A DNA stretch of 64,000 nucleotides. Source: a virus. Below are positions 14,640 to 49,665 of this stretch, in pieces; position 1 is the first letter of the stretch, and each line of letters starts with the position of its first letter. A program made the position numbers and the translations under genes. The DNA lies in IMG/VR virus record IMGVR_UViG_3300032223_002232, positions 62,001-126,000 of that record. One strand, written 5' to 3'. The notes beneath the pieces are model-generated. The model made no database searches, had not been told where the DNA came from, and saw only the letters and a list, made by a program, of their open reading frames with translations.

Positions 14640-15569
14640 ATGGACAAATATGTAATTTTTCACATTGATGGTGGTTGTGGCAAGAACATTGTTGCTACAA
14701 GTGTCGTCAAATCAATCAAATCGGCTTATCCAGAACATAAATTAATAGTAGTAACTGCTTATCCAGAAGTTTTTGTTCATAATCCCAATATTTTTAGGGT
14801 TTATAAGTTTGGAAATATACCATATTTCTATGATGACTACATTAATGGTAAGGATTCAATCATTTTAAGGTCTGAGCCTTATCATTCTGGTGATTTACTA
14901 TATCGCAAGAAGTCATTAACCGAAATTTGGTGTGATGTTTTTAACATTCCATGTGTTGATACTAAGCCAAATATATATTTGACTGAAAGGGAGCTTATTT
15001 TCGCTCAAAATAAGTTACAAAAAGAAGGTCCAATACTTCTAATTCAATCATCTGGTGGTGCTTTTAACCAAGAACATCCATATTCATGGTCAAGAGACCT
15101 TCCACCAGCTTTTGCACAAGAAATTGTTAATAGTGTTAAAGATAAATTTAGTAAAATTCTTCATATTAGAACTGAAAAACAACCAAAGCTTGAAAATACA
15201 ACATCTATAACTGATAATTTTAGAAATCTTTTCTGTTATGTTGCTTTATCAGATAAAATTCTTGGAATTGATTCATTCGCTCAACACACAGCAGCAGCTT
15301 TTAATAAAAAGGCTACGGTTGGTTGGATTTCGAATTCACCTATTGTTTTTGGTCATGAAATTCATGATAATATTTTAGCAAGTGGTGCAGAATCATTTAG
15401 GCATCGTATTGATTCATATCTTGAGGAAGATGATTGGACAGGTGGAAGATTCCATGAATGTCCTTATGATAATATTTCTAACCTTTTTGATAAAAATCAA
15501 TTCATCAAATCTATTTTAGGTTCTAAAACCGAACTTCTTTTTCAACCCAATCCAGAAATAGTATTATGA
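14640..15569 (+). CDS. Glycosyltransferase, GT9-like (heptosyltransferase fold)
   Basis: The 309-residue protein has the two-lobe GT-B outline of ADP-heptose:LPS heptosyltransferase relatives: an N-terminal strand and loop FHIDGGCGKNIVATSVVKSI (the GD.hh-like phosphate loop), a middle ILLIQSSGGA, and a C-terminal SDKILGIDSFAQHTAAAFNKKATVGW typical of the donor-binding lobe. It is the first gene of a two-gene plus-strand cassette placed inside the minus-strand late block, and overlaps the sulfotransferase gene by four bases (ATGA). Target could be host surface sugars or a virion glycan. Substrate is unknown. Confidence 0.75.
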   Translation: MDKYVIFHIDGGCGKNIVATSVVKSIKSAYPEHKLIVVTAYPEVFVHNPNIFRVYKFGNIPYFYDDYINGKDSIILRSEPYHSGDLLYRKKSLTEIWCDVFNIPCVDTKPNIYLTERELIFAQNKLQKEGPILLIQSSGGAFNQEHPYSWSRDLPPAFAQEIVNSVKDKFSKILHIRTEKQPKLENTTSITDNFRNLFCYVALSDKILGIDSFAQHTAAAFNKKATVGWISNSPIVFGHEIHDNILASGAESFRHRIDSYLEEDDWTGGRFHECPYDNISNLFDKNQFIKSILGSKTELLFQPNPEIVL

Positions 15570-16384
15570 TATTTTTCAATTCATCAATGCCTCGTAGTAT
15601 GAGTACGTTACTTCAATGTATTTTGAATCAAAATCCAAATGTTGCTGCAACACCTACTGATCCAGTTCTTGAATATCTTTATGGTGCAAGAATGAATTAT
15701 ACTAATACTCCAGAAGTAAAGGCTATTGACCCTGAATTAGCCCTTAAAACATGGAGAGGTTTTTGTTGGGGTGGATTAGAAGGTTATGCTAAATCATATT
15801 CGGATAAAGCTAATATTTGTATAAAAACAAGAGGTGGTACGATTCATTATAAATGGTTTGAAGCATTTATGCCCTATAAACCAAAAATGATTTGTATGGT
15901 TAGAAATCTTAAAAGTATAATTTCTTCAATGGAAAAAATTTATAGAAAAAGTCAGGAAAGTCATCAATCAATTCAAGATCACTCTAAAATGAGTGGAACG
16001 TCAACACCAAAAAGAGTTGATATCTGGATGGCTTCTCCTCCTGTTGGAATGGCACTTGAGAGGCTTCAACAGACAATGCTTGAAGGGATTAATAAAGAAG
16101 TTCTTTATATTCGTGCAGAAGATTTAACATCTTATCCTCAAAAGGAAATGGATAAAATTTATTCATATCTTGGACTTGAATCATTTAAACATGATTTCGA
16201 TAATGTAGAACAATCCATAAAAGAAGATGATTCTGTATATGGTCTAACACCTGATTTACACACAATTAAAAATAAAGTTCAACCCTTAACTCCTGATTAT
16301 AATGAGATTTTAGGTAAACAGGTTTGCGATTGGATTGATAATCAATACTCTTGGTATCAAAAGGGATTTGGTTATATCAAGTAG
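15566..16384 (+). CDS. Sulfotransferase-like protein
   Basis: The 272-residue protein starts with FFNSSMPRSMSTLLQCIL, which fits the 5'-phosphosulfate-binding loop (PRSGSTLL type) of PAPS-dependent sulfotransferases. Further matches are MICMVRNLKSIISSMEKIYR (the 3'-phosphate site, RxxxxxxxS) and VLYIRAEDLTSYPQKEMDKIYSYLGLE near residue 190, the usual late motif. It probably transfers sulfate to a sugar or peptide made together with the preceding glycosyltransferase. The gene overlaps its neighbour by four bases. Its tail overlaps the next minus-strand gene by eight bases. Confidence 0.75.
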   Translation: MIFFNSSMPRSMSTLLQCILNQNPNVAATPTDPVLEYLYGARMNYTNTPEVKAIDPELALKTWRGFCWGGLEGYAKSYSDKANICIKTRGGTIHYKWFEAFMPYKPKMICMVRNLKSIISSMEKIYRKSQESHQSIQDHSKMSGTSTPKRVDIWMASPPVGMALERLQQTMLEGINKEVLYIRAEDLTSYPQKEMDKIYSYLGLESFKHDFDNVEQSIKEDDSVYGLTPDLHTIKNKVQPLTPDYNEILGKQVCDWIDNQYSWYQKGFGYIK

Positions 16385-31159: not shown

Positions 31160-31237
31160 TTACCAGTGTAACCACCAAAAACTGCCACATTCTTCAAATG
31201 CTGCAATTATTTCATTCCATAAATTTTTAATTGACAT
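31160..31237 (-). CDS. Possible 25-residue peptide gene
   Basis: ATG 31237 opens a 25-codon frame (MSIKNLWNEIIAAFEE, then CGSFWWLHW) preceded at three bases by TAAATATTA on the minus strand. Similar short peptides with an 'LWNxIvxxFE' start occur in other phages. It overlaps the plus-strand promoter at 31231-31258. Small size makes it uncertain. Confidence 0.35.
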   Translation of the reverse strand: MSIKNLWNEIIAAFEECGSFWWLHW

Positions 31238-31258
31238 ATTTAATATTTACCATAACAT
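31231..31258 (+). promoter_or_regulatory. Early-type promoter of the bilin operon
   Basis: TTGACA (31231-31236), 16 bases, TAACAT (31253-31258), then 7 bases to the heme oxygenase ATG. The -35 is a perfect consensus. The distance predicts transcription starting at the ATG itself. There is no ribosome binding site. Confidence 0.65.
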
Positions 31259-31265
31259 ATAGTAT

Positions 31266-31808
31266 ATGACATTTCAAGAAAAACTTAAAAGTGAAACAAG
31301 AATAAATCACGATGCTACTGAACAGCATCCTTTCAATGAAATTTTAATGAAAGGTGAACTTGATGATCAAAAATATTATCTTTATCTCAAGAACATCGTA
31401 ACCGTTTATGATTATGTTGAAAAAAGATTAGGTCTTAAAGGTGAACTCATTCGTTCTTCATTAATTTATAATGATATCATGGCTTATTGTAAATCTGGAT
31501 GTTATTATGATTGTAACGATTACTTTGTACATGATTGGGTTGAAACCCTTGCTCAAAAATCAGATAAGGCACTTCTTTCTGAGCTTTATGTCGAATGGCT
31601 TAAAGATGTTTATGGTGGTCAGATCATTTCAAAGAAAGTAAAGTATAACAGTCATCTTAAATTTAATGATACAAAGAATACTGCTCTTGCTGTTAGATCT
31701 TTGTTAAACATTTCAGCTGAAGAAGAAAAGAATTTTATCTTTGAAGTCAATCGTACATATGTTAATCATTACAAGTTAATGGATGACATCATGTACAAAT
31801 CAAAATGA
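31266..31808 (+). CDS. ho: Heme oxygenase (biliverdin-forming)
   Basis: The 180-residue protein is a HO-1-type heme oxygenase. The N-terminus shows KSETRINHDATEQHPF with the expected proximal heme ligand His15 in T-x3-H-x2-x-E spacing, then KYYLYLKNIVTVYDYVE. The distal helix is EWLKDVYGGQ (117-119), in the place of the usual GDLSGGQ, with one Ser replaced by Tyr. It opens heme to biliverdin IXalpha, iron and CO using electrons probably from ferredoxin. Its stop overlaps the reductase ATG (ATGA), so the two enzymes are made together. The two-gene cassette is embedded, in the opposite direction, in the late block. Confidence 0.85.
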   Translation: MTFQEKLKSETRINHDATEQHPFNEILMKGELDDQKYYLYLKNIVTVYDYVEKRLGLKGELIRSSLIYNDIMAYCKSGCYYDCNDYFVHDWVETLAQKSDKALLSELYVEWLKDVYGGQIISKKVKYNSHLKFNDTKNTALAVRSLLNISAEEEKNFIFEVNRTYVNHYKLMDDIMYKSK

Positions 31809-32482
31809 TTGAAACTCTTTACAATGAATATCAAAAGCTTGCTAAACAAAGCTTCCAAAATATTTCACTTCATGGTAACCATGATAACAAGGATATTATA
31901 TGGTATAATGATCTTTACTTGTCTCCTAGCGTTAGGTATGGGCATGTGGAATACTTTAAAGCCCAAGGAAGAGTGGAAGTACTCCATGCAGTATTTTACC
32001 CTTCCTTCTTCAAGCCTATTCCGATATTCGGTTTCGATATTATTGCCCTCGGAGGCAAAGTAACTGGTTTGTTTTGTGATTTTACTCGTGCTCCTTTTCA
32101 AATAGAAGCTTTATCTCGTTCTTTAAAAGATTTAAAACACAAATATAAAGATAATTTAAGGACAATACCTGAATGGGCTAATTTCTTTTCTGAAGATTTT
32201 GTTTGTATTAACCCGAATGGTCTTAATGAAAAAGAATTAATAGAAGATTTTTCAGGTATATTCAGGTGTTTTATCGGGTATAGTAATTGGGAGGACTATA
32301 CTGGCAAATATAATAAAATGGAAGACGTTAAAATGTCTATTGAATGTCAAAATTCATATTCTATAAATCAACGTAAGAATGATAAGACATCAAAAGCTCT
32401 TACTGCATATATTGGAGAAGATAAAGCCAAAGAATTTATAGAGAATGTATTGTTTCCTGTATATAGGGAATATACCTTTTAA
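31805..32482 (+). CDS. Ferredoxin-dependent bilin reductase (PcyA/PcyX/PebS family)
   Basis: The 225-residue protein has the HY2-family core VLHAVFYPSFF, PIPIFGFDIIALGGKVTGL and CDFTRAP. Aligned on the spacing of Synechocystis PcyA, Glu49, His61 and Asp78 fall exactly 12 and 17 residues apart like Glu76, His88 and Asp105, so the main catalytic trio is kept. PebS has Asn at the His88 place, so the PcyA or PcyX branch is more likely. PcyX is a bilin reductase group known from uncultured oceanic phages and makes phycoerythrobilin. Which product is formed here cannot be read from the sequence. It follows heme oxygenase with a four-base overlap. Confidence 0.82.
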   Translation: MIETLYNEYQKLAKQSFQNISLHGNHDNKDIIWYNDLYLSPSVRYGHVEYFKAQGRVEVLHAVFYPSFFKPIPIFGFDIIALGGKVTGLFCDFTRAPFQIEALSRSLKDLKHKYKDNLRTIPEWANFFSEDFVCINPNGLNEKELIEDFSGIFRCFIGYSNWEDYTGKYNKMEDVKMSIECQNSYSINQRKNDKTSKALTAYIGEDKAKEFIENVLFPVYREYTF

Positions 32483-32750: not shown

Positions 32751-33362
32751 TTACCCACAAGATTCTACCAGTTTAGCTTCCGATTCTCTTCTGGTTATTA
32801 AACCATCTAAACCTTTACCTTCCCAAATACGTTTCATGTCTCTTAGTTCTTTAGCAATTCCTTTATAGTCTTTTTTTGGAACCAAATCACGAATATTTCT
32901 CATCTCTGTACGACTATCCCCTACTAAAGATGTGCCTCTATTAAAGATAAGTGAAACTAAAGCACCATAAGCGTTGTCACAGAGCTTGTCAACGTCAGGA
33001 AATGCCCTTTCAGTAAGTCTTGCAAACTTAGGCCATGTTAAATTATCAAATATCTCTAATGCTTGTTCCCAAGTAACAATTATACCTTTATCTTTAATAG
33101 AATTAGTGTAATCTTTACCAGCTTGACCAGTTTTACCTGATGCATTTTTTACAAGTTCCAATTGTTTGCTTGGTAAAAAATGAAATAATTTAGATAATTC
33201 ATCTTGTGAGTAATAACCGCAATCAACGCCAATACCAAGAGTCATTCCACTAGCACCTTTAGGCCAAGTTGGTCCCTTTAAAAATTCATCATAATATGAT
33301 TTGCCACCGCCAACTTCATATTCAAGAATTAAATTTAATGCTTTTGTTGAAGGTGATTTCAT
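32751..33362 (-). CDS. Endolysin, lysozyme/pesticin-like (GH24-type fold)
   Basis: The 203-residue protein starts with KALNLILEYEVGGGKSYYD and continues GASGMTLGIGVDCGYY. The pair of acidic residues Glu14/Glu16 and the Thr41-Leu-Gly-x-Gly-x-Asp47 stretch resemble the E-D-T catalytic layout of T4-type lysozymes and pesticin-like muramidases. A later NAYGALVSLIFNRG and GLDGLITRRESEAKL are also typical. It cuts cell-wall glycan at lysis. No signal peptide, so it needs a holin. It overlaps the preceding membrane gene by four bases. Confidence 0.85.
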   Translation of the reverse strand: MKSPSTKALNLILEYEVGGGKSYYDEFLKGPTWPKGASGMTLGIGVDCGYYSQDELSKLFHFLPSKQLELVKNASGKTGQAGKDYTNSIKDKGIIVTWEQALEIFDNLTWPKFARLTERAFPDVDKLCDNAYGALVSLIFNRGTSLVGDSRTEMRNIRDLVPKKDYKGIAKELRDMKRIWEGKGLDGLITRRESEAKLVESCG

Positions 33363-42078: not shown

Positions 42079-43122
42079 ATGCCAAAAATTTTAAATAAAA
42101 ATATAGGTTTATTTTCAGATATACATCTTGGATTGGGTCAAGATAGTAAAAACTGGCACAAGGTTGCTATTGATTTTGCAAAATGGGCATCTGAAAAGTT
42201 TAAATCTGAAAATATTGAAGAATTAATCATTCCCGGTGACATATTTCACAATAGAAGTGAAATATCTGTAGAAACTTTATCTATTGCAAAAGAATTTTTT
42301 GAATATTTTAAAGATTTTACAATTTATATTTCAACAGGAAATCATGATTGTTTTAAAAAGGAATCTAGTGATATAAATTCTATAAAATTATTAGATGGAT
42401 GGAATAACATTCATGTTATTGATAATGAACCATTAATTTTACAAACCAATTATAAAAAAACTATTGGACTTGTTCCTTGGGGAACAACTCTAGACAATTT
42501 TCCAAAATGTGATATTATGTTTGCTCACCTTGAAATTAATTCGTTTTATATGAATTCATACAAGGTTTGCGAACATGGATTCTCACATAAAGACTTATTT
42601 AAAAATTCTCCTTATATTATTTCTGGTCATTTTCATAAAAGAGATCATAGAAAATTTGAAAAGGGGGAAATTCTTTATTTGGGCAGTCCGTATCAGCACA
42701 ATTTTGGCGATACCAATGATGATAGGGGTATTTATATATTTAATATTGAAGAAAATTCATTTAAGTTTATCGAAAATAATATTTCCCCAAAGCACGTTAA
42801 GTTATCGGTAAAGACACTTCTTGAAAATTCCGATAAAGTAGATGATATAACAAAAAACAATATAATAAGTGTTGTTGTTGATACTAAAGTTGATCAAAAA
42901 GATATACTATCTCTACAAGCTAAGTTAGCATCAATGGGTCCAATGTCATTAAGACTTGATTATCAAGAACCAGATGAGAAATTATTATCAAACGGCAAAG
43001 ATGATGACTATCAAGGAGAAAATCTTTACAAAAATATAGAGGAGTACATTAACAATCTTGACATAGAAAACAAAAAAGAAGTTGTAGAATATGTAAAAGA
43101 GTTGTATAATTCATTAATATGA
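42079..43122 (+). CDS. 47: Recombination nuclease subunit gp47 (SbcD/Mre11-like)
   Basis: The 347-residue protein has the Mre11-type phosphoesterase motifs: LFSDIHLG (residues 9-16), IPGDIFHNR, STGNHDCF, FAHLEI and ISGHFHKRD. It forms the gp46/gp47 complex that resects DNA ends for recombination and host DNA use. gp46 lies 6.6 kb downstream, separated by the glycan island. It has its own promoter; the ATG is six bases from the -10. Its stop overlaps the next gene start (ATGA). Confidence 0.92.
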   Translation: MPKILNKNIGLFSDIHLGLGQDSKNWHKVAIDFAKWASEKFKSENIEELIIPGDIFHNRSEISVETLSIAKEFFEYFKDFTIYISTGNHDCFKKESSDINSIKLLDGWNNIHVIDNEPLILQTNYKKTIGLVPWGTTLDNFPKCDIMFAHLEINSFYMNSYKVCEHGFSHKDLFKNSPYIISGHFHKRDHRKFEKGEILYLGSPYQHNFGDTNDDRGIYIFNIEENSFKFIENNISPKHVKLSVKTLLENSDKVDDITKNNIISVVVDTKVDQKDILSLQAKLASMGPMSLRLDYQEPDEKLLSNGKDDDYQGENLYKNIEEYINNLDIENKKEVVEYVKELYNSLI

Positions 43123-43874
43123 GACAAGATATAGGAATAGCAATATTAGATGTTTACACACAAGACGATTTAACAGCTTGTGTTGCACATTTACCAAAAA
43201 CAGATAACATTATTATTGTATCTGATACAAAAAACACAATACCAAATGTGTTTAATGTTAAAAGATATGGTAATGGTGTACCATTTGCAACATTGAGGAA
43301 TTGGGCAATATCACAATTTAGAATACAATGTGATATTAAACATATATTTCTTGTAAGTACAAATCAAATAACAAAAGATACAACTATTTTTGATAAAGTT
43401 ATTAAAACAGCTGAAACATTTGGAACAAGAGTGATATTTGGACCAGAAGTTAGTGTGTTATCAATTGAAGATGATGAAAAAGGTATAGATTTAAATCTAT
43501 CTGAAAAAATCAATACTGATTTCATTTACATATCCAACGATGTTGTATCAGAAGTTGGATATTTTGATGAAAGGTTTTTTAATACTAAAACTTTGGACGT
43601 TTTAGATTATATTGAAAGGTTAAGAGAAAAAAAACTTCATACACCTACAGGATTTAACCCAATGATTGTTGGTGACATACAAACAACAAAATCTAAAATA
43701 CAAAAGTTAAATTATAAAGAAATGGATGATCATGATAAGACTGTTGATATGTCCTATGCTTACTTCTTACACAAGTATAGCTATATACCAACACAAAATG
43801 ATCCTAAACCAGTATCTAATGATGATTTAATGAAAACTTTGGAGGAATTACAAACAAATTATGGATCAAAGTAG
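43119..43874 (+). CDS. Glycosyltransferase-like protein (GT-A remnant)
   Basis: The 251-residue protein looks like a GT-A-fold protein: an N-terminal strand IGIAILDVYTQDDLTACV, KHIFLVSTNQITKD, then INTDFIYISNDVVSEVGYFDERF, a typical acceptor part. The usual DxD is not clear, so it may bind but not transfer, or use another site. It is the first gene of the glycan island and starts in the gp47 stop. Its end overlaps the next gene by 14 bases. Confidence 0.55.
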   Translation: MRQDIGIAILDVYTQDDLTACVAHLPKTDNIIIVSDTKNTIPNVFNVKRYGNGVPFATLRNWAISQFRIQCDIKHIFLVSTNQITKDTTIFDKVIKTAETFGTRVIFGPEVSVLSIEDDEKGIDLNLSEKINTDFIYISNDVVSEVGYFDERFFNTKTLDVLDYIERLREKKLHTPTGFNPMIVGDIQTTKSKIQKLNYKEMDDHDKTVDMSYAYFLHKYSYIPTQNDPKPVSNDDLMKTLEELQTNYGSK

Positions 43875-44646
43875 AATTGGCATAGGTATAATCACATGTA
43901 ATAGACCTGATTTCTTTTTTAAGTGCTACGAGTCTATTCCTAGCAAATATGCTGATGATATTGTCATTGTTAATGATGGTAAACCATTTGATTTTATTGG
44001 CAAAGGTCATTTTATTCAACATGAATCTAATAAAAACGTAGGTTATAGTAAAAATGAAGCTATGGCATATCTTTTAGATGTAGGATATGATTATATTTTT
44101 ACATTAGAAGATGATATTATTATAAAAGATAGAGATATCTTTGAGAAATACATTGATGCATCAAATAAAACAGGAATTCAACATTTTAATTTTGGTTTTT
44201 CACAAAGAGAGAACCTTGATCATAATTTAAAACCAGTTTATCGTAAAACTATTGATTACGGTGATGTAAAAATTGTTTTAGCTCCCAATATCCTTGGTGC
44301 TTTTACATTTTATACAAGACATGCTCTTCAAACTGTTGGATTACATCATAAAGACTTTAATAAAGGTCATGGTGATCATTTAGAACTCACATACAGGGCA
44401 GCTAAACATGGATTTACCACACCATTCTGGTGGTTTGCTGATCTTTATGGTAGTTGGGACATGATTGAGAATCAAAGTAACTTCACAACAGACTCTGTTG
44501 TTAGAAGTAAGAATTTTGAACAGAACTTTAATGAAGCTAGATCTATATTTAAACGTCTTCATGGATGCGATATATTTGAAATACCACAATCATCAGAACA
44601 AGAAGTTATAAACATTTTAAAGAAAATTAAAAATGAGAGAAATTAA
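43861..44646 (+). CDS. Glycosyltransferase family 2-like
   Basis: The 261-residue protein has the GT2 layout: IGIITCNRPDFFFKCYES, IVIVNDGKPFDF, NVGYSKNEAM, and IFTLEDDIII with EDD as the metal site, then GAFTFYTRHAL and a long helix. It transfers a sugar from a nucleotide donor to an unknown acceptor. A GGAGGA lies 14 bases before the ATG, longer than ideal. It overlaps neighbours on both sides. Confidence 0.75.
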   Translation: MDQSRIGIGIITCNRPDFFFKCYESIPSKYADDIVIVNDGKPFDFIGKGHFIQHESNKNVGYSKNEAMAYLLDVGYDYIFTLEDDIIIKDRDIFEKYIDASNKTGIQHFNFGFSQRENLDHNLKPVYRKTIDYGDVKIVLAPNILGAFTFYTRHALQTVGLHHKDFNKGHGDHLELTYRAAKHGFTTPFWWFADLYGSWDMIENQSNFTTDSVVRSKNFEQNFNEARSIFKRLHGCDIFEIPQSSEQEVINILKKIKNERN

Positions 44647-45352
44647 CTTTATAAGTGAAACACATTTAGGGGATTGTATTTTTACCACTGATTTTTTAAA
44701 TAAAATGATTAAACTTGATGATAACATCAAAGTTAATTTTTATATTTTTGAAAAACACAAACATCAAGTCACAGAACTGATTGAAGATCATGATAGAATA
44801 CATGTTTTAAACTATTCAGATGCACCTGTAACTGCTAATAGAGCTTGGATGGCACAATATGGTCAAATTACGCAAATCCCTTTTGATTTTACCAAATTAA
44901 AAATGGATTTTTATGACATTCTTTGCAAAGAACTTAAATTGCCAAATCCATATAAAGATAAAATAGATTTATTATTTGATCATAAAGATTTAATTGGTAA
45001 GGATTATACTGCGGATATACTTTTACTCAATTCAGATCCACTTAGCAATCAATTAGGTGGTGGAAATTTAGATTGTAGTTCCTTTTTAGAGAAATTCAAA
45101 GATAAAAAGATTATAACAACTAAAAAAGTTGATGGATTCCCATGCACATTGGATTATAATTATTCAATCTTTGATATTGCAAATATTTCACTTGGTATAA
45201 GTAAAATCATTGGTGTTCATACTGGACCTTGGCACGTTATTATGAATAGAAAGAACTATAATATGGGTAAAAAGTTCTACTATATAGATAATAACTGCTG
45301 GTATACATATGATAACTGCATAAAAATAAAAGATTTAACCGTATTTAACTAA
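44633..45352 (+). CDS. Glycosyltransferase, GT9-like
   Basis: The 239-residue protein has the heptosyltransferase-like outline: INFISETHLGDCIFTTDFL (the GD phosphate loop), and a late ISKIIGVHTGPWHVIMNRKN, the donor-lobe helix. Shorter than most GT9 (about 330), so the middle part is reduced. It starts 14 bases inside the preceding gene. Substrate unknown. Confidence 0.65.
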   Translation: MREINFISETHLGDCIFTTDFLNKMIKLDDNIKVNFYIFEKHKHQVTELIEDHDRIHVLNYSDAPVTANRAWMAQYGQITQIPFDFTKLKMDFYDILCKELKLPNPYKDKIDLLFDHKDLIGKDYTADILLLNSDPLSNQLGGGNLDCSSFLEKFKDKKIITTKKVDGFPCTLDYNYSIFDIANISLGISKIIGVHTGPWHVIMNRKNYNMGKKFYYIDNNCWYTYDNCIKIKDLTVFN

Positions 45353-45354
45353 TT

Positions 45355-46026
45355 ATGATCACATACTTCAACAAAAACTACTTGGATTATATCCTCTTAC
45401 AAAGAACAAGACTCACAACAGAGTATAAAGTTACAGCAGAAAGCAATGAAAGAGATATTTCATATGCATTATCAGTAATGGGTTATAGAGATCTTGAATT
45501 AATAAGTCCATTTCTTCCAAACAATAAAAATATTGATTACAATGTTTTAGATATTGGTTGTGGTCTTGGTGTTATAGATGTACTTCTAAGCAAACATTAT
45601 CCAAATGCAAATTTTTATTTGCAAGATAAGAGCGAAGAAATTGATTCTACAAAAAAATACAATGGTTTTAATGAAACATATCAATATTATAATAATATAG
45701 ATTTATTAAAAGAGTTTGTAACTAATAATGGTATTAAAAATTTTGAAATTATTGATGGTGCTAATTTATATGATACAAATTTAAAATTTGATGTAATAAT
45801 GTCATTACTTTCTTGTGGGTGGCACTATTCACTTTTAACTTATTTAGAATTTATTAAAACACATCTATCGGATGAAGGAATTTTAATTATTGATGTTAGA
45901 AATGAAACCGAAGAGGGATTACTTTATGAATATTTCCATAATGTTAATAGGATTTTCAATCCATACGAGAAAAGACATGATGGTGGCATAGTAGGTTATC
46001 GTTATGTTTGCACATTATTAAAGTAA
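45355..46026 (+). CDS. SAM-dependent methyltransferase
   Basis: The 223-residue protein has the class I SAM motif VLDIGCGLGVIDVLL (motif I) with FYLQDKSE as motif II, and FDVIMSLLSCGWHYSLLTYL, then ILIIDVRNE. Members with this pattern methylate small molecules or sugars. It is between a GT9-like and another glycan gene, so the substrate is likely a sugar. Starts two bases after the preceding stop. Confidence 0.75.
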   Translation: MITYFNKNYLDYILLQRTRLTTEYKVTAESNERDISYALSVMGYRDLELISPFLPNNKNIDYNVLDIGCGLGVIDVLLSKHYPNANFYLQDKSEEIDSTKKYNGFNETYQYYNNIDLLKEFVTNNGIKNFEIIDGANLYDTNLKFDVIMSLLSCGWHYSLLTYLEFIKTHLSDEGILIIDVRNETEEGLLYEYFHNVNRIFNPYEKRHDGGIVGYRYVCTLLK

Positions 46027-46028
46027 AC

Positions 46029-46982
46029 ATGAAATATTTCATAGCTGGTAATGAAATACATTCAGATAAGAATCTTCAATCTGGACCATTAGAAAATTAT
46101 TATGAATTAGGGTTTGAATGTGTTTATACACATTTATTAGCCAAAAGATTCATAAATGATGGTACGTTAAATGTAAATGAAGATGTTGTTGTTACATGTG
46201 AAGGTAGAGAATTCTTTTATAACAACTATATTAAAACGATAACATGGAAAGAATTTGAAGAAATCAAATTAACTCAATTAACGACAACAATTAATGGTAC
46301 AGAATATCTTTTAAATAACATATTTAAAGAAACAGAGGTTTTCCATGATCTTTATATGGAAGGTAGTGCACCATTTGGTAAATTATTTAATCCAACTTTA
46401 CCTGAATCAGAAAATTACAACAATTATGTTAAAACTGGTACACCAAAGTACAAATACTTCCAAGAAGATTATGATTTAATTACAAATTTAAATTTTAATA
46501 AAGAATTAATTATACCTGATCAGAAATATATATGTTTTAATCGTAGATTTAGGAAACATAGAGAAGAATTTAATATGTCAAAAGACTATGCAGTTAAATT
46601 AATGCAAAATTTAATTGAAAAGTTCAATGTTAAAATTTATATCACAGGTTATCATAATGAAAAATTTGAAACTGTCATGGATAACGTTAAATGGGTAAAT
46701 CTTAGAGATTGGTGTACATTAATGAATCATGATAATTGTTTTGCAGCTGTACAAAACCAAACAGGCACAACTAACCTATCTCAGATAGCTGGAAAAGAAA
46801 GACTTTTAAATATTGTAATCAATAATGATGAAACAATGTTTACAAATCCGTTATATTTTAATGGAAGAAGACCAGATGTTCTTGGTAAAGCTGTTAATTT
46901 TAAAAAACTAAGAAATATTCTTTATAGAGGTGCTCAACCATCTATTGATGATATAGTTAAAAACATAGAACAATATGCTTGA
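46029..46982 (+). CDS. Glycan-related protein, possible glycosyltransferase
   Basis: From the ATG 46029 the product has 317 residues: KYFIAGNEIHSDKNLQSG, VVVTCEGREFFYNN, then YICFNRRFRKHREEFN and AAVQNQTGTTNLSQIAGKER, which resembles the donor lobe of GT-B proteins. No DxD. The TTG at 46008 is a poor alternative inside the preceding gene. Substrate unknown. Its stop overlaps the next ATG. Confidence 0.5.
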   Translation: MKYFIAGNEIHSDKNLQSGPLENYYELGFECVYTHLLAKRFINDGTLNVNEDVVVTCEGREFFYNNYIKTITWKEFEEIKLTQLTTTINGTEYLLNNIFKETEVFHDLYMEGSAPFGKLFNPTLPESENYNNYVKTGTPKYKYFQEDYDLITNLNFNKELIIPDQKYICFNRRFRKHREEFNMSKDYAVKLMQNLIEKFNVKIYITGYHNEKFETVMDNVKWVNLRDWCTLMNHDNCFAAVQNQTGTTNLSQIAGKERLLNIVINNDETMFTNPLYFNGRRPDVLGKAVNFKKLRNILYRGAQPSIDDIVKNIEQYA

Positions 46983-47709
46983 TTTAAAAAACGTTACTAT
47001 TGTATCTATTAATACTAGAGATCCTGAATTAAGCATTAAAGCTATTGAAAGATCATGCAAATATATTAATTTTGGAGAAAATTTATTGCTAACTGATAAA
47101 GATCTTAAACATGAGAATATAAAAATTGTAAAAATACCAACAATAAAGTCTTTAAAAGAGTATAGTTTATTTTGTATTAAAAATTTACATAATTATATTG
47201 ATACGGAACATTGTTTATTAGTGCAACCAGATGGATTTGTTACAAATCCTTTCATGTGGTCTGATGAATTCTTACATTATGATTATGTAGCTGCTCCTTG
47301 GGATAAACTTTTATCACAAAGAGGTCTTTGGATGTGTGGCATGTTAAATATGGATCTAGAAGCCGTTCCAATTATTATTGGTAATGGTGGATTTTCTTTA
47401 AGAAGTAAAAAATTCTTAAAAGAATCATCAAAATTAAATTTTAATATTGATTTACCAGAAGATGCATTTTTATGTATTAAAAGTAGAAAAACATTATTAG
47501 ATAGAGGTATAAAATTTGCACCACTTAGTGTTGCAAAAAGATTTTCACTTGAAAGTCCTATTGATTTAAATGAAAAAAATGTAACTCTTGATGCGCATTT
47601 TGGATTTCATGGTACACATGAATTCAAAAAACCACTTATGGATCTTTTAGATAACATTGAAAATGATGTTGAATCTGTTAAGTTAATCAAAAAGTTCTAT
47701 GAGTCTTGA
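46975..47709 (+). CDS. Glycosyltransferase-like protein, DUF5672 type
   Basis: The 244-residue protein has the DUF5672 pattern: VTIVSINTRDPELS, HCLLVQPDGFVTNP, YDYVAAPWDK and IGNGGFSLRSKKFL, then EDAFLCIKSR and FGFHGTH. Such proteins are thought to be GT-A transferases of host or phage surface glycans. Overlaps the preceding gene by eight bases and the next by 11. Confidence 0.7.
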   Translation: MLDLKNVTIVSINTRDPELSIKAIERSCKYINFGENLLLTDKDLKHENIKIVKIPTIKSLKEYSLFCIKNLHNYIDTEHCLLVQPDGFVTNPFMWSDEFLHYDYVAAPWDKLLSQRGLWMCGMLNMDLEAVPIIIGNGGFSLRSKKFLKESSKLNFNIDLPEDAFLCIKSRKTLLDRGIKFAPLSVAKRFSLESPIDLNEKNVTLDAHFGFHGTHEFKKPLMDLLDNIENDVESVKLIKKFYES

Positions 47710-48394
47710 TATAATATACAGATGTTGCAATGCAGAGATAAATCCACCATTTAAGTGGGTTAGACCACCTTGGTTTAATAAATTAGCATGTCTTAAATCA
47801 TTTTTAAAATCAGTAGACTCTAATAAATTTTATATAGGTAAAGTTATTTTTGTTCATGATGGTCCAAAAGGAGAACTTTATGATAATATTCCAAAAGAAT
47901 TTGAAATTATTTCAGTTGATTACAAAGATAATGAACTTAGTTTATTAGAAACATTCAAAGTTGCTGATAAATTAAAAAATAATGTTTATTTTGTGGAAGA
48001 TGATTATCTACATTTAAAACATTCTATTCAATATATTGCTCAAGGCGTCGAAAACTTTAAACTTGTCACTGGATATGATCATTTAGATCGTTATAAGCGA
48101 GACGATGATATAACTTTTGGTAAAGAACATATAGCTTTTTCTAAAAAAACTAATTGTCATTGGAGAACAGCAGAATCAACGTGCTGTACATGGGCAACTA
48201 CAAGAGAATTATGGCGTGGTGCGGTTGGAGATTTTGCAAAAACTTATAGATTACAAGATCGTCAATTATTTAGAGGTCTTTATAATCAACATAACATAAG
48301 ACTTTGGAATCCAATACCAGCAGTTACAACACAAGTTGATATAAATTTATCACCCGGTATTGATTGGGAAGCTTTTCAATCTAAATTAATTTAA
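47699..48394 (+). CDS. Glycosyltransferase, GT-A-type
   Basis: The 231-residue protein has IIYRCCNAEINPPFKWVRP, VIFVHDGPKGELYDN, NNVYFVEDDYLHLKHS with a Glu-Asp-Asp site, and TESTCCTWATTRELW-like residues before the last helix (AESTCCTWATTREL). It most likely transfers a sugar. Overlaps the preceding gene by 11 bases. Confidence 0.65.
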   Translation: MSLDIIYRCCNAEINPPFKWVRPPWFNKLACLKSFLKSVDSNKFYIGKVIFVHDGPKGELYDNIPKEFEIISVDYKDNELSLLETFKVADKLKNNVYFVEDDYLHLKHSIQYIAQGVENFKLVTGYDHLDRYKRDDDITFGKEHIAFSKKTNCHWRTAESTCCTWATTRELWRGAVGDFAKTYRLQDRQLFRGLYNQHNIRLWNPIPAVTTQVDINLSPGIDWEAFQSKLI

Positions 48395-48395
48395 T

Positions 48396-49115
48396 ATGGA
48401 TAATATTACTCATTCAGTTTGGGTAGGTTTAAATGATCTTTCTTTGATGGAAAGATTAACTTTATCTTTATTGGTAAAAAATGGTTACAATCCAATTCTT
48501 TGGTGCAACAATGAATTAAAAAATGTACCAAAAGGTGTAACTTTAAAACAAATACCTAAAGATATTATTCAACCAATAGGATATAGGGGGAAACCAAATA
48601 ATACTTTTAATGGTGGTATTGGTTCTTATGCTCTTTGGGCTGATTATTTTTCATTTTATACATTATACATGGAAGGTGGGTTATGGGTTCAAATGGATGT
48701 TGCAATAACAAAACCAATTGTAAATGAAAAAGAATATTGGTTTAATCCTTGGGCAAATGGTGTTGGTGTTATGGTATTAAAAATGCCAAAAGGTAATATT
48801 ATCTGTAAAGATATATTAAATAGAATACATCCTCATGTTTTAAATGGGTTTGAAAGTTCATATTGGGAAGTAACAATGGAATTATTATCATTTTTGATTA
48901 AAAAATATGATATTCTAGATCAATCATATATATTTGGTGACGAATATATTGATTGTGGTGGGAATCCCAATTCAATTTTTAGAAATCCCTCTGATAAGAA
49001 CTATCAAATAATACATTGGTCGAATGCATCACATATTACAGAAAAAAATAATCCAATAGTTAGTAGTGAATATCATAGATTATGTCTTGAATGTGGTTTA
49101 TTAGATAATAAATAA
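48396..49115 (+). CDS. Glycosyltransferase, GT32-like (capsular type)
   Basis: The 239-residue protein shows the GT32/sugar-binding DxD pattern: ITHSVWVGLNDLS, YALWADYFSFYTLYMEGGLWVQMDV (in parts) and IIHWSNASH at the end. The usual DxD is QMD here. The helix order fits this family of mannosyl- or galactosyl-like transferases. Starts two bases after the previous stop. Confidence 0.7.
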   Translation: MDNITHSVWVGLNDLSLMERLTLSLLVKNGYNPILWCNNELKNVPKGVTLKQIPKDIIQPIGYRGKPNNTFNGGIGSYALWADYFSFYTLYMEGGLWVQMDVAITKPIVNEKEYWFNPWANGVGVMVLKMPKGNIICKDILNRIHPHVLNGFESSYWEVTMELLSFLIKKYDILDQSYIFGDEYIDCGGNPNSIFRNPSDKNYQIIHWSNASHITEKNNPIVSSEYHRLCLECGLLDNK

Positions 49116-49119
49116 GAAA

Positions 49120-49665
49120 ATGAGCATAGAAGAACTATATATTCAGAATAAAGAAAACCCTTCCGATATAAATGAGCATCTAGAGACTCTTTATAAGTAC
49201 GCTAAAGAGTGTAATACCATTGCAGAATTTGGTCTTAGATGGGTTTGTAGTTCATACGCTCTAGCTCATGCTAGACCACAAAAATTAATTTGTGTTGATA
49301 TCAATAATCATGGAAACGTTGACAGTTTTATTGAATTATGTAAGATGGAAAATATAAATGCAGTATTTCATCAAGCAGATACAAGAAATTATGAATTGGA
49401 AGAGGTTGATATGCTTTTTATAGACACTCTTCATACATTTGATCAGTTAACAAAAGAATTAGAAATACATCCACCAAAGGTAAAAAAATACATGATGTTT
49501 CACGATACTGTTTCATATGGTAATGTCGATGAAATGACAGGTCAAACTGGTGAAAATCATGGTTTAATACCAGCAATTAAAAACTTTTTAAAGAATAATC
49601 CACATTGGCAAGAGCTTGAAACTCATACAAACAACAACGGTTTAACCATTCTTAAAAGAGTATAA
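49120..49665 (+). CDS. SAM methyltransferase-like protein
   Basis: The 181-residue protein begins with a helical part, then NTIAEFGLRWVCSSYALAHA (motif I like), LICVDINNHGNVDSF (motif II) and MLFIDTLHTFDQLTKELEI, with MMFHDTVSYG. The pattern FIDTLHTFDQ is that of the Methyltransf_24/cephalosporin hydroxylase-like group. It ends the island; a promoter for gp46 follows immediately. Confidence 0.65.
   Translation: MSIEELYIQNKENPSDINEHLETLYKYAKECNTIAEFGLRWVCSSYALAHARPQKLICVDINNHGNVDSFIELCKMENINAVFHQADTRNYELEEVDMLFIDTLHTFDQLTKELEIHPPKVKKYMMFHDTVSYGNVDEMTGQTGENHGLIPAIKNFLKNNPHWQELETHTNNNGLTILKRV

Follow-up and report, generated by a model that had tools for sequence, protein, structure and literature searches.

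A heme oxygenase and PcyA-type bilin reductase gene pair with a conserved promoter in a T4-like phage

Described systems and the phage locus

Phage hemO and pcyA pairs were published in 2024 (Wegner et al. 2024, PMC11480375). They include freshwater CB_2, whose HemO and PcyA have been assayed and make biliverdin and phycocyanobilin (PCB). The CB_2 reductase lacks the Asp found in PcyX (PMC11480375). This survey was baited with alaS (PMC11480375), so it would miss pairs without that gene, such as the one described here. In Bradyrhizobium ORS278 a hemO-pcyA-alaS island gives a non-cyanobacterial HO and PcyA that serve a phytochrome (PMC11480375). Marine phages have hemO-pcyX, as in pelagiphage Mosig EXVC030M. 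What phages gain from bilin synthesis when their hosts seem to be non-photosynthetic is treated there as an open question (PMC11480375).

The pair considered here lies in a window of 64,000 bases, which is bases 62001-126000 of a 169,763-base IMG/VR virus record. The record has T4-like terminase and capsid genes and a GC content of 30.9%. The nearest matches of TerL are in Sinorhizobium phages and those of the capsid protein in cyanophages, with identities of about 33-34%. These affinities point to no particular host. The pair is a heme oxygenase (HO) and a ferredoxin-dependent bilin reductase (FDBR), two plus-strand genes amid minus-strand genes. A first-pass annotation had read them as a bilin pathway with its own promoter, and the evidence of family, fold, active site and promoter upholds this. 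Re-reading the sequence gave the same coordinates and frames, the same lysis genes alongside, and the same 4-base overlap. The HO stop and FDBR start share ATGA (31805-31808, plus strand), which makes translational coupling of the two genes likely. The endolysin beside the cassette differs among relatives. It is a phage lysozyme in the window (32751-33362), L007 and L096. At the same place L004 (7195-7668), L006 (7196-7669) and L011 (1048-1527) have a gene unrelated to it that looks by eye like an M15-type peptidase.

Like CB_2, the window pair joins a phage HO to a PcyA-type FDBR without the PcyX Asp. CB_2 carries alaS as well, however, and a search for alaS (TIGR01821) is negative in the 169.8-kb record and in those contigs of the window branch that were searched. 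The same model finds its positive control in the PcyX-type G015. We asked whether L066 might be CB_2 and decided against it, as it has an apparent MFS transporter, not alaS, between HO and FDBR. Nor does the record match 2Fe-2S ferredoxin, psbA, phytochrome PHY or phycobilisome families, and no bilin-binding protein gene was found in it. Positive controls in named genomes worked for these partner-gene searches. The phage thus differs from Bradyrhizobium ORS278 in showing neither alaS nor a phytochrome gene. The first-pass annotation saw no photosystem gene in the window and proposed a psbA and phycobilisome search of the rest of the contig; that search is negative, and the observation now covers the whole record. 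By these searches the host must supply heme, electrons and any acceptor of the bilin. The window has no tRNA or Rfam family.

Folds and active sites of the two proteins

The HO (31266-31808, plus strand) is a 180-residue member of the HO-1 family. It matches PF01126 with E 1e-9 and 38.9 bits against a curated cut-off of 23. A profile of 29 phage HOs reaches solved heme oxygenases at E 1e-26. The AlphaFold2 model has a pLDDT of 96.3, and Foldseek matches it to heme oxygenases with a TM of 0.72-0.83 to HmuO and HO-1. The active site is present. His15 (31308-31310, plus strand) corresponds to the proximal heme ligand, His25 of human HO-1, and is kept in every full-length HO of the set except L080. 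The distal-helix motif D114-V-Y-G-G-Q119 (31605-31622, plus strand) contains Asp114, the counterpart of human HO-1 Asp140, and Gly117-Gly118. The His and the GGQ motif are as previously annotated. That annotation also called Tyr for Ser in this motif unusual, and here we disagree. All HOs of the window branch have D-x-Y/F-G-G, and D-x-Y-G-G is found in some PcyX-linked HOs too, so DVYGGQ is no anomaly. Most marine PcyX-linked HOs have DLSGGQ. By sequence and model this is an HO-1-type heme oxygenase, predicted to bind heme and form biliverdin IX-alpha. Three phage HOs have lost active-site residues. The catalytic Asp is replaced by Met in L116 and by Ile in L022, and L080 has neither the proximal His nor GGQ. 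An FDBR still adjoins in each case.

The FDBR (31805-32482, plus strand) has 225 residues. The first-pass annotation would have given up its reading had this protein fallen outside the HY2 family, and it passes the PF05996 cut-off of 31 with 88.7 bits (E 6e-25) and has the FDBR fold. PHROG annotates it as a ferredoxin oxidoreductase. A profile of 48 FDBRs scores best against PcyX (5owg, 7e-68), followed by PcyA (3e-62), PebA (8e-14) and PebS (1e-6). For the AlphaFold2 model (pLDDT 93.7) the best PDB matches of Foldseek are PcyA structures, with a TM up to 0.82. Identity to solved PcyA is about 23%. The NCBIfam PcyA equivalog is by far the best-scoring FDBR model at 107.7 bits, which does not reach its cut-off of 206.

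Glu49 (31949-31951), His61 (31985-31987) and Asp78 (32036-32038), all on the plus strand, correspond to Synechocystis PcyA Glu76, His88 and Asp105 minus 27. The spacing is identical, as the first-pass annotation had it. Asp78 is invariant in 48/48 aligned FDBRs. Cyanobacterial PcyAs are E/H/D at these places and marine PcyX, including that of Mosig, is D/H/D. PebA/PebB-type controls are A/N/D or T/N/D, and a pre-PcyA-like row is A/T/D. The earlier argument that the His makes a PebS-type active site untenable holds with PebA/PebB-type controls standing in for PebS, since they have Asn there. Cyanophage PebS shares the FDBR superfamily and fold, but its sequence and fold similarity is lower. Tyr238, the hydrogen-bond partner of Glu76 in PcyA, served as a further test residue, and its place is taken by Phe211 (32435-32437, plus strand). 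Among the FDBRs compared, the HO-linked phage enzymes have Phe there, and cyanobacterial and cyanophage PcyA have Tyr.

Relatives, inheritance and promoter

In IMG/VR the HO-FDBR pair is present in 16 or more distinct lineages. It sits at the same place by the lysis genes, in the same gene order, in L007, L004, L006, L096 and L008. The two proteins of L007 are 73% and 74% identical to those of the window. The pair is at other places in L021 and in a group of about 33-39% identity (L098-L106, L114). The first-pass annotation had called for trees of both proteins. In the FDBR tree the 16 rows of the window branch form one clade (97/86). Adding PcyX and a small number of other rows gives a larger HO-linked phage group (100/100) that is apart from cyanobacterial and cyanophage PcyA. 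The latter have the same Glu/His/Asp triad, but they are a separate clade with Tyr238, and no HO adjoins them in the loci fetched. The order inside the HO-linked group has weak support (87/34). The best tree sets the FDBR with PcyX, and the AU test does not reject a tree constrained to unite the E-type rows (p-AU 0.206). The HO tree has the same 16-row split (99/96), so the pair was inherited as a unit. Both genes have a dN/dS of 0.06-0.18, and 16 of the 17 nucleotide differences to the nearest relative are synonymous. The recurrence across lineages, the matching trees and this constraint all argue for a functional unit that is inherited together.

Marine hemO-pcyX is similar in that HO is followed directly by FDBR, the FDBRs belong to the same deep group, and both have Phe at the Tyr238 place. 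The window pair differs in having Glu rather than Asp at the Glu76 place, DxYGGQ rather than DLSGGQ in its HO, and its own conserved promoter. Identity between the two is about 26-28%. Phage cassettes of hemO with pcyA or pcyX are known, and the window branch is apparently a separate and undescribed one in a comparison made without the CB_2 and alphaproteobacterial (AX) PcyA sequences. CB_2 may belong to it. In INPHARED, tblastn gave no HO match at E 1e-5, FDBR matches were only 26-31% identical, and a near-identity DNA search returned nothing. A scan of genome contigs found no bacterial relatives of the HO, and for the FDBR it found Prochlorococcus and one odd MAG. A plasmid search found a PebA-type gene only. 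One Halobacteroidaceae MAG includes a contig of 7.7 kb (L132) whose HO-FDBR pair is PcyX-type and falls within phage rows. The contig is probably from a phage and was put into the MAG by binning.

The promoter reported in the first-pass annotation is present and conserved. It has a -35 hexamer TTGACA (31231-31236, plus strand), a 16-nt spacer, and a -10 hexamer TAACAT (31253-31258, plus strand) that lies 7 nt 5' of the ATG. A consensus match alone is weak evidence, because 87 promoter-like sites are found in 12 kb where 69.9 are expected. TTGACAT and the 16-nt spacer are preserved in five relatives, however, while the rest of the intergenic DNA has diverged. The relatives have TAACAT, TAATCT or TATATT at equal spacing. 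TTGACA also precedes the start by 29-40 nt in 14 phage genes, against about 0.5-1.2 expected. The -10 box is 6-10 nt from the ATG in this layout, so the cassette mRNA should be leaderless or nearly so. Judged from its type, the promoter is probably early. SD-like 4-mers stand ahead of 16 of the 177 called genes in the whole record (9%, control 5.7%), and going by these counts the phage seems to make little use of SD-led initiation. Outside the window, five small genes share an upstream element that is similar to TTGACACCTCCTCCTAAAGCATATAGAATA and ends a few nt ahead of each start (L145, G000:344-2460, minus strand). Such elements are likely a family of early, leaderless promoters.

Bilin product, role and other genes of the phage

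We argue that the pair is a two-gene auxiliary metabolic cassette that takes heme to biliverdin and then to PCB, with the bilin used via the host. We put the probability of this reading at roughly two in three. Early in infection a host sigma-70-type promoter would give a leaderless mRNA that spans both genes. The HO would open host heme to give biliverdin IX-alpha, iron and CO. The PcyA-type reductase would then use four electrons of host ferredoxin to convert biliverdin, most likely to the blue pigment phycocyanobilin. We infer that the reduced bilin could then serve a bilin-binding protein of the host as ligand or chromophore.

The first-pass annotation had guessed at phycoerythrobilin as the product. 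Glu76 is described as PcyA-specific and required for 18-vinyl reduction (PMC10151467). The window FDBR has Glu at this place as PcyA does, PcyX has Asp, and the CB_2 enzyme without that Asp makes PCB. On these residues PCB is the likelier product. A PcyX-like phycoerythrobilin synthase is improbable by comparison, even though the branch groups with marine PcyX at 100/100, 5owg is the top match of the profile, and Phe211 is as in PcyX. Product specificity could still differ from that of PcyA, given the distance from solved PcyA, the equivalog score below its cut-off, and Phe for Tyr238. Glu49 is replaced by Gln in L096, L100, L101, L106 and L114. Glu is retained in L098 and L104, which are the rows closest to L100 and L101. 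The Gln relatives show in nature the exchange of the PcyA E76Q mutant (structure 3i95), and by the cited role of Glu76 this exchange could change the product. It is a tentative and rather doubtful idea that this is a phage FDBR lineage of its own, neither PcyX nor cyanobacterial PcyA, with a leaderless promoter and a Glu/Gln switch between PCB and a two-electron product in non-photosynthetic hosts. The branch contributes 16 or more lineages, and in several of them the promoter is conserved. Its natural Glu/Gln variants of a product-determining residue make product and purpose testable between close relatives.

One can imagine a different benefit, where the HO frees iron or removes heme and the reductase merely clears biliverdin. 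The exact bilin would then hardly matter, which fits the Gln in the five relatives. The phage encodes iron users, namely the class I ribonucleotide reductase NrdA and NrdB. A putative ferrochelatase gene lies upstream of the HO in Mosig, L066 has a frame that by eye is an FTR1-like iron permease beside its pair, and iron supply is discussed in PMC11480375. However, iron release needs only the HO, yet the FDBR is constrained as strongly, and the His and Asp of the triad are invariant. On this ground we favour the bilin itself as the product that the phage requires. Next to the pair in the window phage we noticed no gene for taking up or storing iron. We consider this iron or heme economy a serious possibility, with odds of about half those of the bilin-producing cassette. 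The plus-strand pair amid minus-strand genes might also suggest a captured host gene that is decayed or not expressed. This would not leave intact frames at the same position in several phage genomes, nor such low dN/dS, so few nonsynonymous differences and a conserved promoter. The selection data largely refute it, and we give it almost no weight.

The phage has other cargo besides the bilin cassette. An adenylosuccinate synthetase of 331 aa is encoded in the same record (L153:6490-7485, minus strand; PF00709, E 5e-81). PurA models outscore PurZ for this protein, all under the NCBIfam cut-offs. An AMP-binding, acyl-CoA-ligase-like gene of 462 aa (L153:7894-9282, minus strand) is unusual cargo in a T4-like phage. 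Within the window, the run of reading frames at 42079-49665 is glycosyltransferase-like by eye and one frame has a methyltransferase match, and a sulfotransferase is found at 15566-16384. These are perhaps for surface or capsid decoration.
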